Assembly: GCF_000266905.1 (NCBI RefSeq)
Contig: NC_018027.1
Coordinates: 4,154,001-4,218,000 of the forward strand
DNA: 64,000 nucleotides
Direction: 5' to 3'
From: Mycolicibacterium chubuense NBB4
GTDB lineage: Bacteria; Actinomycetota; Actinomycetes; Mycobacteriales; Mycobacteriaceae
The position numbers and the translations under genes were made by a program. Shown one piece after another: positions 30,795 through 35,214 of this stretch (its first letter is position 1; each line of letters opens with the position of its first letter). The notes beneath the pieces are model-generated. The model made no database searches and had not been told where the DNA came from. It saw nothing but the letters and a program-made list of their open reading frames with translations.

Positions 30795-31268
30795 ATGCCG
30801 AATTCACCGGTCGACTTTCAGCGCCGATCCCGAACCCGCCGGCAAGCGCCGGCCAGCGTCCCGCAACCGCTGGAGGACGAAGACGACCTCGTGGCCGTCG
30901 ACACCACCTGGGGAGAATTGCAGCCCCTGCAATGCGCACCGGGCGTCGTGACCGTCGGTGAGCTGGAACTGATCGACAGCGTGCGCGGCGGCGCCCTCCT
31001 CGTCGACACTCGGATGCCCGACTCGAAGCGCGGTGTCACCCTCCCCGGAGCGGTCGGCATCCCGCACGACCAGATCGCGCAGCGCAGCGATGAACTCGAC
31101 CCCTCTCGGGTGAACATCGTGTTCTGCAACGGCCCCCAATGCCCGCAGTCTCCCGATGCGATCCGCCGACTGCTCGACGCCGGTTTCCCGGCCGGCTCCC
31201 TGGCCTATTACCGTGGCGGCCTTCATGACTGGGTCACCCTCGCGATGCCCACGGCGCCGGTGGCCTGA
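30795..31268 (+). CDS. Rhodanese-like protein
   Basis: A 157-residue protein with an N-terminal basic tail (about 50 residues) and one rhodanese domain: LLVDTRMPDSKRGVTLPGAVGI, then the active loop FCNGPQCPQSP with Cys111 (and Cys116). Single-domain rhodaneses move sulfane sulfur between thiols. The ATG at 30795 lies 9 bp after the methyltransferase stop. It ends at a terminator shared with the convergent persulfide operon, which places it next to related sulfur genes. Confidence 0.75.
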   Translation: MPNSPVDFQRRSRTRRQAPASVPQPLEDEDDLVAVDTTWGELQPLQCAPGVVTVGELELIDSVRGGALLVDTRMPDSKRGVTLPGAVGIPHDQIAQRSDELDPSRVNIVFCNGPQCPQSPDAIRRLLDAGFPAGSLAYYRGGLHDWVTLAMPTAPVA

Positions 31269-31275
31269 CCCACCA

Positions 31276-31308
31276 TGATGCCCCCGTGCAGAAGGCACGG
31301 GGGCATCA
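31276..31308. terminator. Bidirectional hairpin terminator
   Basis: A perfect 14-bp stem (TGATGCCCCCGTGC and its complement) with a 5-nt loop lies between the convergent ends of the rhodanese gene (+) and the persulfide operon (-). Confidence 0.75.
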
Positions 31309-31319
31309 GGGTTCGGCGA

Positions 31320-31484
31320 TCAGCGGCCGAACAGCGGATTGCGCTTCGGCTTCTGCGCTTCGGCCCGGTCTGAGCAGGTGCACCACTGGGACGCGGGTAC
31401 GGACTGCCGGACGTCGGCGACGTGTTGGCCGCAGCCGTCCCAGGTTGTCTTGCCGCATCGGCGACACGTGACGGGGTAGCACAT
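31320..31484 (-). CDS. 54-residue cysteine-rich small protein in persulfide operon
   Basis: The ATG at 31484 lies 7 bp after AAAGGGA and opens a 54-codon frame: MCYPVTCRRCGKTTW at the start, then DGCGQHVADV and ASQWCTCS, ending KPKRNPLFGR. Six cysteines and His21 form CxxC, CxxH and CxC pairs, so a small zinc-ribbon or a thiol/sulfane-sulfur carrier is possible. From general memory the MCYPVTC...GCGQH pattern recurs in actinobacteria. It is 25 bp downstream of trxA and is the third gene of that operon, ended by the hairpin at 31276. Function unknown. Confidence 0.8.
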   Translation of the reverse strand: MCYPVTCRRCGKTTWDGCGQHVADVRQSVPASQWCTCSDRAEAQKPKRNPLFGR

Positions 31485-31509
31485 GACGATTCCCTTTCTG
31501 TTCGAATGT

Positions 31510-31881
31510 CTATGCTGTGGCGGCTTTTCGGGCGGCGATCGTCGCCCGCACCGATTCCATGTCGAGCTCCTTCACCCGCGTGATGAGGTCCTCGAGCGTC
31601 GCGGGCGGCATCGCCCCGGGCTGGCTGTACACCAGGACCCCGTCGCGGAACGCCATCACGGTCGGGATCGACCGGATCTGCAGAGCCGTTGCGAGATCGA
31701 GTTCCTTCTCGGTGTCGACCTTGGCGTGCACGACGTCGGGATGCGCGGTCGACGAGCGTTCGTAGACCGGCGCGAAGGCCCGGCACGGTCCGCACCAGGA
31801 CGCCCAGAAGTCGACGAAGACGATCGGGTTGCCGACGATCGTCGACTCGAAATCGTCGAAGCTCAAGTTCACTGTGCTCAT
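31510..31881 (-). CDS. Thioredoxin
   Basis: A 123-residue thioredoxin. VFVDFWASWCGPCRAFAPVY contains the redox pair Cys30/Cys33 and IRSIPTVMAF the cis-proline. The ATG at 31881 follows a GGAGGAAC site; an upstream TTG at 31896 is less likely. It is 36 bp downstream of the persulfide dioxygenase fusion gene on the same strand, so it could reduce protein persulfides formed by the rhodanese or regenerate oxidised partners. The reductant would be thioredoxin reductase encoded elsewhere. Confidence 0.9.
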   Translation of the reverse strand: MSTVNLSFDDFESTIVGNPIVFVDFWASWCGPCRAFAPVYERSSTAHPDVVHAKVDTEKELDLATALQIRSIPTVMAFRDGVLVYSQPGAMPPATLEDLITRVKELDMESVRATIAARKAATA

Positions 31882-31917
31882 CGTGTGTTCCTCCAATTCC
31901 TCTGAGATGGCCCGTGA

Positions 31918-33297
31918 TCAGACCGCGGCGTGGGCCTCGGCCCAGGCGTTGTAGCCGCCGGCCAGATCCGAGACGTTCTCGAAGCCCTCGGCCCGCAGCA
32001 GCGACGCGGCCACGCTCGAGCGCCAGCCCCCGGCGCAGTGCACCACGATCGGCTTGCCGCTCGGCACGTCGGCCAGCCGCGTGCGCAGCTGGGCGAGCGG
32101 GATCGGCGTCGCGGCGGGGATCACGCCGAATTCGCGCTCACCGGGGTTGCGAATGTCGATCAGCGTGACCGCATCCTCGTCGAGCAACCGGTCCAGCTCC
32201 CGCGCCGACGTCCGGGGCGCCGTGCGCACCAGGTCACCGAGTTCTTCCGGGAAGCCGCCGTCGCGCCCGACATTGAGATAACCCACGGCATTGTCCGAGC
32301 CGATGCGGGCCAGCCGAAGCGCCGCTTCCTGCTCCTCGCCGGGGTAGGTGACGAGGGCGACCTGCTCGCCGACCTCGGCGACCATGCCGCCGGTTTCGGC
32401 GAAGCGGCCGTCGAACCCGACGTTGACCGAGCCCCGCAGGTGTCCGGCCGCGAAGTCCTCGACGCTGCGGGCGTCGACCACGCGCACCCCGGCGTCCAGG
32501 GCGGAACGCAGTTGCGCCGCGGTCATCTCCGGAATCCTGCGATCGGGGGCGAGCAACGGGTGCACCCGCTTGTTCATCGCCGCATCCGAGGAGAAGTACG
32601 CCGGGGCGGCGGGTTGACCGTGGGTGATCATCTCCACGAACGCTTCCTCCGCCATCGGCTGCACCGACGGGTTGGTGCGCCGCTGCTCGCCGATGGTGGA
32701 CGTGAGGTCCGTCGAGAGGTTCTTCCCGCACGATGAACCGGCGCCATGGGCGGGCATCACGGTCACCGCATCGGGCAGCCGCAGCAGCTTGTCATGGATG
32801 GTGTGGTACATCGCCCGCGCCAGATCCGACGTGGAACTGTCACCGATGTTGACCAGGTCGGGCCTGCCGACGTCGCCGATGAACAACGAGTCGCCGGTCA
32901 GCACCGCGGTCGGCTCGGCGCCGGGACGCTCACGCACCAGCACACTGATCGACTCCCAGGTGTGGCCCGGGGTGGAGAGGATCTCCAGGTCCACCTCCCC
33001 GAGCGACAGGTGCTCACCGCCGGCCAGTCTCCGGATGGGGTAATCGGTCTGGGCGGCTTCGCCGAACCCGATCCACGCCCCGGTCGCATCCACCAATTCC
33101 AGATGCCCGGAGACGAAGTCGGCGTGGAAGTGGGTGTTGATCACGCCTTCGATGCGCAGCCCGTACTTCGCCGCGTCGGCGAGGTACTCGCTGATATCGC
33201 GGCGCGGGTCGACGACCACGGCGCGGCCGGTGCCCTCGTCACCGATCAGATACGACGCGTGTGACAGGCACTCGATGTAGTACTGCTCGAGAATCAT
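31918..33297 (-). CDS. Persulfide dioxygenase-sulfurtransferase fusion (CstB-like)
   Basis: A 459-residue protein with three parts. Residues 1-245 are a metallo-beta-lactamase fold of the ETHE1/persulfide dioxygenase type, with the iron ligands in THFHADFVSGH (His56, His58, Asp60, His65). Residues about 265-350 are a rhodanese-like domain without a readable active cysteine. Residues about 365-459 are a full rhodanese with Cys421 in VVHCAGGWRSS. This MBL, pseudo-rhodanese, rhodanese order is that of S. aureus CstB, which oxidises low-molecular-weight persulfides to thiosulfate. The ATG at 33297 follows GGAGGACA. An operator-like palindrome lies 65 bp upstream. Confidence 0.88.
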   Translation of the reverse strand: MILEQYYIECLSHASYLIGDEGTGRAVVVDPRRDISEYLADAAKYGLRIEGVINTHFHADFVSGHLELVDATGAWIGFGEAAQTDYPIRRLAGGEHLSLGEVDLEILSTPGHTWESISVLVRERPGAEPTAVLTGDSLFIGDVGRPDLVNIGDSSTSDLARAMYHTIHDKLLRLPDAVTVMPAHGAGSSCGKNLSTDLTSTIGEQRRTNPSVQPMAEEAFVEMITHGQPAAPAYFSSDAAMNKRVHPLLAPDRRIPEMTAAQLRSALDAGVRVVDARSVEDFAAGHLRGSVNVGFDGRFAETGGMVAEVGEQVALVTYPGEEQEAALRLARIGSDNAVGYLNVGRDGGFPEELGDLVRTAPRTSARELDRLLDEDAVTLIDIRNPGEREFGVIPAATPIPLAQLRTRLADVPSGKPIVVHCAGGWRSSVAASLLRAEGFENVSDLAGGYNAWAEAHAAV

Positions 33298-33362
33298 CAG
33301 TTGTCCTCCGTTGTCGGGGCTCCAAGCCAGGCGATTTCCTGGCGTCACGATCGACAACCAAC

Positions 33363-33378
33363 ATACCCCCTGGGGTAT
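33363..33378 (-). promoter_or_regulatory. CsoR/CstR-type operator candidate upstream of persulfide operon
   Basis: The 16-mer ATACCCCCTGGGGTAT is an inverted repeat of ATACCCC/GGGGTAT with a 2-bp centre. Its right edge lies 65 bp from the ATG of the CstB-like gene. Palindromes of ATACC/GGTAT with C/G-rich centres are bound by CsoR-family repressors (persulfide-sensing CstR, copper-sensing CsoR/RicR). The sulfur gene downstream favours a CstR-like regulator; no regulator gene is in the window. Confidence 0.7.
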
Positions 33379-33417
33379 TCCGCACCGATTCCGCGCCGGG
33401 TCGAGATCGGCGTATCA

Positions 33418-33459
33418 CGCCAGATGGGGCCCGGACGCATGTCCGGGCCCCATCTGGCG
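33418..33459. terminator. Long perfect hairpin terminator after the rhodanese gene
   Basis: A perfect 19-bp stem (CGCCAGATGGGGCCCGGAC and complement) with a 4-nt loop. It lies 52 bp after the stop of the minus-strand rhodanese gene and ahead of the persulfide operon operator, so it separates the two units. Confidence 0.75.
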
Positions 33460-33511
33460 GTCAGCTCTTCGCGGCGGCCGGGCCTGGCTCAGCGGCACCT
33501 AGAGAGAGCGC

Positions 33512-33826
33512 TCAGCCCGACTCGGCCGGGTGTCCGGCACGGATCCACCCTTTGGTGCCCCCGGCGACCGATACGGCGCTGCGGCCGGAGTCCTCGAGGA
33601 TCTCCGCCCCTCGCTTGCTGCGGTTTCCGGACGCACAGATGACGTACACCGTCGTGTCCGCCGGCACCTCGCCCACCCGCGCGGGTAGCTCGCCGAGCGG
33701 TATCCACTGCGCGCGGGGTACGTGGGCCTGGGCGAACTCGTGGTCCTCGCGCACGTCCAGCACCGGCGCGCCGGACTCCCAGGCGCGAGCGAGAGTGGCG
33801 ATGTCGACTTCCTGTACAGCTGCCAT
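33512..33826 (-). CDS. Single-domain rhodanese
   Basis: A 104-residue sulfurtransferase: PVLDVREDHEFAQAHVPRAQ, then the active loop VICASGNRSKRG with Cys64, and SVAGGTKGWIRAGHP at the end. It carries sulfane sulfur as a cysteine persulfide. The ATG at 33826 follows GAGGAG. A second operator-like palindrome lies 67 bp upstream and a long hairpin lies downstream, so it appears to be its own transcription unit, controlled like the CstB-like operon. It has the place of a CstA/single-rhodanese component of a persulfide locus. Confidence 0.85.
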   Translation of the reverse strand: MAAVQEVDIATLARAWESGAPVLDVREDHEFAQAHVPRAQWIPLGELPARVGEVPADTTVYVICASGNRSKRGAEILEDSGRSAVSVAGGTKGWIRAGHPAESG

Positions 33827-33893
33827 GGCGACTCCTCGGGGTCGAAACGAGGCGATCGGACGGATCGCGTGGAATGTACCGACTCTACCAGCT

Positions 33894-33909
33894 ATACCGG
33901 TGGGGGTAT
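33894..33909 (-). promoter_or_regulatory. Second CsoR/CstR-type operator candidate
   Basis: The 16-mer ATACCGGTGGGGGTAT shares the outer ATACC and GGGGTAT with the operator at 33363-33378 and has the same length. It lies 67 bp upstream of the rhodanese ATG and 78 bp upstream of the divergent histidine kinase gene. Confidence 0.6.
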
Positions 33910-33987
33910 GGCAGTCGGTCGAACGAGCAGGGTGCCGACCGTCGCCGGTTTAAGGTGAGTCCACCTGCACGCGAGGAGCTGAAAACC

Positions 33988-35214
33988 ATGTCCGGCGAGC
34001 TCGCGATCGCCCTGACCGCCGCGCTGATCGTGGTCGCCGTCGCCGCGGTGGTTCTCGCAGTGCGGACACGTCAGGTCGTGGCCACGCCGACCGAGCGCGC
34101 TGTGCACGCCACCCTGCACACGGCGTCGCTGGCAGCGCGGGCGCTGCGGCAGGGCCTCGACACCGGCTCCGCCCGGACCGCGGCGCCCTTCCTGCGCGGT
34201 CTCACGGGAACCGACGGGCTGGCGCTGTTCGACGGTGACGGCCGGCTGCTCGCCCGCGACGCCGACGACGACGCCGTGTGGAACGGCGAGGTCGTCGACG
34301 CCTGCACGTCCGCGGCCGCCGAGTCGATCGGTGGGCAGCGGAGGGTGATGACGCACGCCACGGCCGCCGCGGTCGTCGCCCAGCCGCTGCTCGCCGAGGC
34401 CGGCGACCTGCTCGGCGTGCTGGTGGTGGTGACGACGCGCTCGCCCGGGCCGGGGACGCTCGGCGCCGTCGGCGAGGTCGCCCGGTATGCGGCCAGCCAG
34501 ATCGAGCTCGCCGAGCTCGACGCATCCCGGGCGCGGCTGGACCGCGCCGAGGTGCTGGCCCTGCGCGCACAGATCAGCCCGCACTTCATCTACAACGCGC
34601 TCAACACGATCGCCTCGTTCGTCCGCACCGACCCCGACCGGGCCCGCGAGCTCATCCTCGAGTTCGCCGACTTCACGCGGTACTCGTTCCGCGCGGCCGG
34701 CCAGTACACCACGCTGGCCGACGAGCTGCGCAACATCGACCGCTACCTCAACCTCGAGCGCGCGCGGTTCGGCACCGCGCTGACCGTGCGGCTGCAGGTG
34801 GCACCGGAAGTCCTCAATGTCGTCGTGCCGTTCCTGGCGCTGCAGCCGTTGGTGGAGAACGCCGTTCGGCACGGCTTCGCCGGCCGCGGCAGTGGATCCA
34901 TCGAACTCGTCGCGCGTGACGAGGGCTCCGACTGCGTCATCACGGTCGAGGACGACGGCATCGGCATGGATCCGGACGCGCTGCGCGCCGGGCCGAGCGA
35001 CGCACTGTCCGGCGGCACGCCCGCCGGCGAAGGGGACTCCGCACATGTCGGCCTGACCAATGTCGACCATCGGCTGCGGGCCGCGTTCGGCAACGACTAC
35101 GGTCTGGTGGTCGAGACGGCGATCGGCGCCGGGACCAAGGTCGTGATGCGGGTCCCCAAGTTCCGGTCGGGCGTGCGGGCCGGCGGAGGGGCATTCGGGG
35201 TGGGCAAGCAGTGA
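33988..35214 (+). CDS. LytS-family sensor histidine kinase
   Basis: A 408-residue kinase of the His_kinase/LytS class. It has one N-terminal membrane helix (residues about 5-26), a GAF-like cytoplasmic region (about 35-175) with TDGLALFDGDGRLLARDAD, the phosphoacceptor His199 in RAQISPHFIYNALNTIASF, PLVENAVRHGF (N-box) and DDGIGMD (G-box). Unlike many LytS proteins it lacks the multi-pass sensor domain, so the input is probably cytoplasmic. The ATG at 33988 follows GAGGAG. It overlaps the response-regulator gene (GTGA). Confidence 0.88.
   Translation: MSGELAIALTAALIVVAVAAVVLAVRTRQVVATPTERAVHATLHTASLAARALRQGLDTGSARTAAPFLRGLTGTDGLALFDGDGRLLARDADDDAVWNGEVVDACTSAAAESIGGQRRVMTHATAAAVVAQPLLAEAGDLLGVLVVVTTRSPGPGTLGAVGEVARYAASQIELAELDASRARLDRAEVLALRAQISPHFIYNALNTIASFVRTDPDRARELILEFADFTRYSFRAAGQYTTLADELRNIDRYLNLERARFGTALTVRLQVAPEVLNVVVPFLALQPLVENAVRHGFAGRGSGSIELVARDEGSDCVITVEDDGIGMDPDALRAGPSDALSGGTPAGEGDSAHVGLTNVDHRLRAAFGNDYGLVVETAIGAGTKVVMRVPKFRSGVRAGGGAFGVGKQ

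Follow-up and report, generated by a model that had tools for sequence, protein, structure and literature searches.

Two CstR-type operators and a small cysteine-rich protein in a candidate sulfane-sulfur locus of Mycolicibacterium chubuense NBB4

The cst operon of Staphylococcus aureus contains CstA, CstB, SQR and CstR, and CstB is built in the order dioxygenase, Cys-free rhodanese, rhodanese. A CstB-like fusion enzyme of the same order is encoded between positions 31276 and 33909 of the stretch analysed here, a window of 64 kb from Mycolicibacterium chubuense NBB4 (NC_018027.1, positions 4,154,001 to 4,218,000), in which two CstR-type operators head two minus-strand units: the first holds the genes for the fusion, a thioredoxin and a 54-residue Cys-rich protein, the second the gene for a single-domain rhodanese (Table 1). 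In contrast to the cst operon the window fusion has no adjoining CstA, SQR or CstR, but is accompanied by the extra thioredoxin and small Cys-rich protein. A second described system is the ScCsoR circuit of Streptomyces coelicolor (sco0619-sco0621) in which polysulfide releases ScCsoR from its site ATACCn6GGTAT and the genes under its control encode a dioxygenase, TauE and a rhodanese (PMC7533328). The operator, a two-Cys CsoR-family repressor and the dioxygenase, TauE and rhodanese targets are shared with the genome studied here, where the closest counterpart is a locus at C3:1025 kb (other loci are given by contig and position). However, in this genome the targets are spread over five clusters and there are three CstR-like paralogs as well as SQR-like genes, and the sections consulted of the Streptomyces paper describe no thioredoxin or small Cys protein for the four-gene circuit (PMC7533328). 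TrxP and TrxQ of S. aureus, which are reported to reduce protein persulfides (PMC6196236), are also thioredoxin-type and by analogy persulfide reduction may be the role of the window thioredoxin, although the latter shares a unit headed by a CstR-type operator with the dioxygenase that it follows. The mycobacterial papers PMC6987094 and PMC7711268 treat CsoR as a copper regulator. A literature search, in which subscription journals were thinly covered, surfaced no publication describing a regulon of CstR type in mycobacteria, and searching by motif, family name and topic yielded nothing on the small Cys-rich protein. How persulfides are sensed and removed is being actively studied, and this genome would add a mycobacterial example of a CstR-type regulon, one that comprises five clusters and probably three sensors.

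The initial annotation of the window had proposed both operator-headed units and a CstB-type domain order, and all of these elements were found. The fusion comprises a persulfide dioxygenase of the metallo-beta-lactamase (MBL) fold, a pseudo-rhodanese and a C-terminal rhodanese containing C421. Its Cys residues are confined to positions 10, 190 and 421 and the middle rhodanese domain is therefore Cys-free. It aligns over its full length with the Protein Data Bank (PDB) entries 3tp9 (E 4e-83) and 3r2u (E 2e-56), the second of which we take to be CstB itself, whereas the two-domain BpPRF aligns in two pieces only. The three-domain order, with Cys present in the last domain, and the conserved metal-site and Cys residues are thus those of a CstB-type enzyme. 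Residues of metal-site type are H56, H58, D60, H112 and D136, presumably including those that bind iron, together with C190; of the 41 aligned fusions, two have gaps at D60, D136, H184, C190, C421 and R426 and the other 39 agree at each of these positions, and H56, H58 and H112 were read from the motifs of the window copy only. The thioredoxin scores 95.8 bits against NCBIfam TIGR01068, slightly below the cut-off of 96.8. In a dioxygenase tree retaining 39 of the 41 rows the window copy groups with copies from other species (support 81/67, unstarred) and is separated from its own 82% paralog, so that a recent duplication of the fusion within the genome is unsupported.

Within the window the operator motif, with one mismatch permitted, has three matches against 0.20 expected, and none of 100 shuffles reached three. 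The exact sequence ATACCN6GGTAT, which is the published ScCsoR motif and agrees with the persulfide-type operator first proposed, occurs ten times in the 6.34-Mb genome (three contigs) and its reversed control not at all; shuffles and genome count together rule out chance occurrence of the motif. Two of the ten sites are those of the window, three are at C1:339 kb, two at C3:3516 kb and one each at C3:1025 kb, C3:1515 kb and C3:4579868, the last of which looks unrelated. Six of the eight sites outside the window sit in three clusters with CstR-like, SQR-like and fusion genes, where "SQR-like" is a reading of a Pyr_redox_2 protein adjoining a dioxygenase. At C3:1025 kb a second fusion, which shares 82% identity with that of the window, is divergently oriented to genes for a CstR-like protein, TauE and a YgaP-like rhodanese. 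A 19-kb stretch at C1:339 kb contains, besides its three operators, a third fusion (52%), a further dioxygenase (37%), an SQR-like flavoprotein, DUF302 and two CstR-like genes, and at C3:3516 kb the two operators accompany a fourth fusion and an SQR-like gene, beside sulfite- and APS-reductase-like genes (the reductases read by eye). Strict operators thus form five clusters, of which the window is one.

The genome has five CsoR-family (PF02583) genes, all of them outside the 64-kb window. Two are copper-like (DDHLRHC, DEHLGHC), and the other three are CstR-like, with RDCKDVV and ATG(L/M)R(E/Q)C, that is, a Cys pair with Gly at the position of the copper His; a two-Cys repressor lacking the copper His is therefore present in three paralogs. 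Sites of the weak, one-mismatch class lie immediately 5' of the likely starts of two of them (C3:1023652 and C1:340193), while no site was shown directly before the start of the third, at C1:336 kb, 54 bp behind an SQR-like gene. No sqr or cstR gene was found in the annotated interval and its flanks, as had been noted from the start, and SQR and sensor are not in one cluster with the window genes but at C1 336-340 kb and at C3 1023 and 3518 kb. The expectation that the sensor would be encoded elsewhere is borne out by the three CstR-like genes, which share the operator class, and the refuting condition set at the outset, a genome devoid of CsoR-family regulators, does not apply. Since sensor, SQR-like and TauE genes are all located elsewhere, the regulon is a dispersed one of which the window forms a satellite, and not the complete regulon for which it had been taken.

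In all likelihood both window units are targets of a CstR-type persulfide-sensing repressor, with the fusion, the rhodanese, the thioredoxin and the small protein handling sulfane sulfur. The repressor, a two-Cys, non-copper member of the CsoR family encoded at other loci, would control both units, and a rise in sulfane sulfur would lead to persulfidation of its Cys pair and release of both operators. Low-molecular-weight persulfide would be oxidised to sulfite by the fusion, whose rhodanese domain would move sulfane sulfur as would the separate rhodanese, and the thioredoxin would reduce protein persulfides; we infer that the genes behind the first operator are co-transcribed. The 54-residue protein, as a regular member of the response in many Actinomycetota, would most likely be a metal (zinc) thiolate protein, serving to accept, buffer or transfer sulfane sulfur. 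Sequence comparison gives good support for viewing the window and its regulon as a variant of the CstR/ScCsoR persulfide regulon, in which the small protein is a real lead with a conjectural function.

Three considerations count against such a reading of the operators. The motif ATACCn6GGTAT is said to resemble the sites of the copper sensors RicR and CsoR (PMC7533328), and an H2S donor raises genes of the CsoR and RicR copper regulons in M. tuberculosis (PMC6987094), so that neither the motif nor induction by sulfide proves persulfide sensing by itself. In addition, one-mismatch sites number 42 in the genome against 22 for the control; such weak sites mean little and for this reason were counted only at relevant genes. 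The first two considerations, together with the two His-containing CsoR paralogs and the Cys-rich nature of the small protein, would be accommodated by a copper regulon in which the operators belong to CsoR/RicR-type sensors and the small protein acts, like a metallothionein, to buffer copper. This is very improbable, however, as the regulators adjoining the 6-nt-spacer sites lack the copper His and the genes there are mostly those of sulfur oxidation, whereas the copper-type genes are accompanied by a different site. ATACCN7GGTAT occurs seven times in the genome (control 0): three of these sites are found 4-5 kb ahead of the copper-type CsoR gene of C1 (418.9 kb), which ends an HMA/copper-ATPase cluster (by eye) headed by two of the three (C1:414973 and 415005), and one is beside a DUF305/HMA-like pair (genes read by eye). 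The second copper-type gene, at C3:147.6 kb, has a one-mismatch 7-nt-spacer site 0.7 kb away, and neither copper-type stretch contains a 6-nt-spacer site, even with one mismatch permitted. On the strength of the 7-nt spacers at copper-type loci and the His-free regulators at 6-nt sites a copper regulon was set aside as the principal explanation. Among 80 distinct CsoR-family open reading frames (ORFs) in the fetched loci, the copper His is present in two, this genome's own copper-type genes, and absent from the other 78, including one in which His occupies the first Cys position. Although the sites are few, persulfide and copper sensors in this genome seem to be distinguished by spacers of 6 and 7 bases, respectively, and spacer length may offer a simple rule for telling their operators apart here. 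Three of 32 further one-mismatch sites, C3:1211918, C3:2311206 and C3:660936, had no sulfur link when their genes were inspected by eye and were taken as chance matches.

The small Cys-rich protein has no Pfam or NCBIfam match at 1e-3, none in Pfam at E<=1 and none in the PDB at E<=10, and among 14 members of its family the best Pfam E value is 0.0076, to DUF7575. Its nearest named counterpart, from M. chlorophenolicum, is 98% identical, the ORFs (L094) differing by 8 synonymous changes and 1 non-synonymous change in 55 codons; with the copy of genome G054 (L065) there are 6 synonymous and 6 non-synonymous differences. A motif-free recount over 147 stretches with the gene (L064-L173 and L204-L240, window copy included) gave 154 places and 145 distinct copies, in all of which C2, C7, C10, G17, C18, G19, H21 and C35 are invariant, with W15 in 142. 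C35 is followed by x-C (Cys37) in 71 copies and by x-G-H or x-G-x-H in 74, and the family motif is MC-x4-CxxCGKTTWxGCGxH...C-x-C or C-x-G-H. By its codon pattern and the conservation of six Cys/His in 145 distinct copies the ORF behaves as a real gene. In two annotated plasmid records the gene is omitted from one and labelled "hypothetical protein" in the other. Similar short proteins occur in plants and fungi, and if these are true relatives the role of the protein could extend beyond bacteria.

The protein is present in 44 of 100 relatives (G000 included), and a scan of genome contigs gave at least 573 relatives. The best 80 of these formed a named set, by title 79 Actinomycetota and one "Acidobacteria" metagenome-assembled genome, and as such best matches are biased an even sample of the phylum Actinomycetota was drawn. 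Here the protein was found in 36 of 296 genomes (39 copies), figures that may be low with at most 22 candidates scored per genome. The phylum sample gave 37 stretches of up to 10 kb, the host copy excluded, with two copies in one stretch and two stretches cut by contig ends. A strict operator lies within about 5 kb in 21/37, a site with at most one mismatch in 23/37, a CstR-like gene in 16/37 and either a strict operator or a CstR-like gene in 24/37, compared with 0/37 strict and 2/37 one-mismatch sites for the control. The corresponding values for the named loci are 63/80, 71/80, 53/80 and 70/80, with 0/80 for both controls; with six near-identical loci merged, a strict operator is found at 58/75 and an operator or CsoR-family match at 65/75, the CsoR-family count possibly including copper-type matches. 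The five comparison regions from the host's own genome are an unfair control, each having been selected on account of a site or a CsoR gene. The 35 other genomes with the small gene carry 93 strict sites (control 3), 26 of them within the 37 stretches, which make up 0.37 Mb of about 115 Mb.

Among 82 distinct small genes chosen by motif (76 from L094-L173, six from L204-L240), a strict operator ends at most 79 bp upstream of the start in 32, none is upstream in the stretch in 19, and one lies within 120 bp downstream. In the phylum set the operator is within 65 bp of the start for 9 of 34 located starts, five of them with the start codon overlapped by two bases; adding L233 and L238, in which coordinates place the operator on the start codon, 11/37 are within 65 bp or overlapping. 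The two-base overlap, in which GGTAT is followed by G to give ATG, is seen in L228, L232, L233, L234, L235, L237 and L238. These counts, drawn from comparison of sequences, make the regulatory link of the small protein to a CstR-type operator well supported, whilst it is gene context only that points to a sulfur role. The recurrence of the protein with this switch in many actinobacteria suggests an overlooked part of their stress response and offers an initial clue to the function of a tiny but widespread protein rich in Cys. The protein also appears on 76 plasmid records, and all ten genera among the matches listed belong to Actinomycetota. It was absent from all eight genomes listed for group g33, which measure 7.1-9.9 Mb, so a persulfide response, if there is one in that group, works without it.

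Not all of the data favour this picture. Strict sites are absent from 12 of the 35 other genomes that carry the small gene, and 13 of the 37 phylum loci have neither a strict operator nor a CstR-like gene. Seven of the 13 were inspected and have unrelated neighbours and no near-match site, from which it follows that the protein is not exclusive to the persulfide response; in another, L227, a site with one mismatch lies 71 bp upstream. The AlphaFold2 model (116 sequences; strands 3-6 and 13-16, helix 22-28) is modest, with a pLDDT of 77 and a pTM of 0.48, and a fold search against the PDB returned nothing significant (best E 1.8), although the model is compatible with a treble-clef-like zinc fold. 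The Cys/His exchange at position 37 argues for metal binding with seven ligands, as persulfide-carrying Cys residues are usually intolerant of such a change. This exchange, the predicted beta-hairpin with its short helix and the unrelated gene contexts in some lineages would also suit an ordinary CstR regulon in which the small protein has only a structural role as a zinc finger, for example as an adaptor or regulator, and is not a sulfur carrier. That is a real possibility, if somewhat short of an even one, and against it the repeated linkage to thioredoxin, rhodanese and dioxygenase genes fits a thiol or sulfur role better than that of a generic adaptor. With seven Cys/His ligands in about 40 residues, and an operator linkage placing it with persulfide genes, the protein might instead be a zinc or thiol sink for metal freed by persulfide attack on zinc sites, with no handling of sulfur. 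This is rather unlikely; no zinc-homeostasis gene was noticed beside the small gene, a weak point as the annotation reference set held none. The small protein is, from its sequence and setting, probably a CstR-regulated, zinc-binding thiolate protein for sulfane sulfur. More tentative, and on balance doubtful, is a fuller scheme in which the unannotated family is a widespread direct CstR target in Actinomycetota and a dedicated sulfane-sulfur metalloprotein, with a fixed zinc site of C7, C10, C18 and H21 and a second, three-ligand site of C2, C35 and C37 or H38, the open position of which would bind sulfane sulfur or hand it over between dioxygenase, rhodanese and thioredoxin.

Gene order in relatives gives no support to the claim that the thioredoxin and the Cys-rich protein are the unusual elements of this locus. 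A fusion at E<=1e-60 is present in 42 of 100 genomes (G000 included), and in 10 of 99, host excluded, a copy reaches 80% identity or more over most of its length; the match in G054 is 89% but covers 122 residues only. Judged by the best copy fetched from each of these ten, the thioredoxin and small genes lie behind the fusion in four (L035, L039, L041, L043) and the small gene alone in L042, neither is within 1.5 kb in four others (L036, L038, L040, L044), and the stretch of L037 ends too early. In M. palauense (L095) everything is in one place, DUF302-CstR-TauE-rhodanese, three operators and fusion-thioredoxin-small, while M. chlorophenolicum (L094) and G054 (L065) have operator-rhodanese and operator-thioredoxin-small without the fusion. 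An annotated Microbacterium record lists in a row a hypothetical small protein, a thioredoxin, an MBL-fold protein, TauE, DUF4395 and a rhodanese. The window therefore looks like a mosaic in which thioredoxin and small gene are a recurring pair. An operator, in which one end base may differ, is found within 180 bp upstream in 37 of 40 fusion genes (41 stretches were given and the start was located in all but L049).

Table 1. Features of the window, numbered within the 64-kb stretch, and copper-type loci elsewhere in the genome.
Feature	Position	Strand	Remarks
CstR-type operator ATACCCCCTGGGGTAT	33363..33378	.	exact ATACCN6GGTAT; 65 bp 5' of fusion ATG
CstB-like fusion, 459 aa	31918..33297	-	ATG at 33297; Pfam Lactamase_B and two Rhodanese stretches
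Thioredoxin, 123 aa, WCGPC (C30, C33)	31510..31881	-	Pfam PF00085, E=7.3e-22
Small Cys-rich protein, 54 aa (C2, C7, C10, C18, H21, C35, C37)	31320..31484	-	coding pattern, conservation
Strong hairpin between convergent genes, probable bidirectional terminator	31276..31308	.	-33.6 kcal/mol, z -7.0
Second operator ATACCGGTGGGGGTAT	33894..33909	.	exact ATACCN6GGTAT; 67 bp 5' of rhodanese
Single-domain rhodanese, 104 aa, one Cys (C64)	33512..33826	-	Pfam PF00581, E=8.8e-15
Very strong hairpin 3' of rhodanese, probable terminator	33418..33459	.	-46 kcal/mol, z -8.8
Convergent rhodanese-domain protein (C111, C116), behind methyltransferase gene	30795..31268	+	Pfam PF00581, E=5.8e-6
Copper-type loci with ATACCN7GGTAT	C1:413818, 414973, 415005; C3:4059224		L242-L244, L247

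Both hairpins that the initial annotation had called terminators were recovered, but they have no T tract and the terminator scan called neither, for which reason the word "probable" stands before the label in Table 1. Between the first operator and the ATG of the fusion, the leader (33300-33362) forms a weak hairpin (z -1.9); L094 has one like it (z -2.4), and no counterpart was seen by eye in the remaining fusion leaders compared. The convergent rhodanese-domain gene has no strict operator in front and its membership of the regulon is uncertain. The second operator is also 78 bp from the likely start of a divergent histidine-kinase gene. In the interval 33894-33988 it is flanked by the rhodanese on one side and, on the other, by a divergent LytS/LytR-like two-component pair, beyond which are a small membrane-protein gene and then a sodium:solute-symporter-like gene (both read by eye). 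A repressor bound at this operator might touch both the rhodanese and the LytS/LytR-like side.

A few further observations concern loci outside the window. DUF302, a further family without known function in this setting, recurs beside the small protein (L069, L071, L087, L099, L139, L144, L169), in some cases also with a CstR-like gene. The contig of the "Acidobacteria" metagenome-assembled genome (L096) looks mycobacterial, with a CstR-like gene 88% identical to that of the host, and is probably a contamination. Six loci (L120, L128, L129, L130, L132, L134) have at least 800 bases in common at 95% identity or more, with CstR-like and small genes, and span records of Haematomicrobium, Microbacterium (once a plasmid), Thermocrispum, Cellulosimicrobium and Microlunatus; this likeness reflects either recent horizontal transfer or cross-contamination of assemblies. 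Finally, a strict operator at C3:1515107 (L018:7108) is immediately 5' of a 1-Cys peroxiredoxin gene, and it may be the case that peroxide and persulfide responses share a CstR-type sensor.

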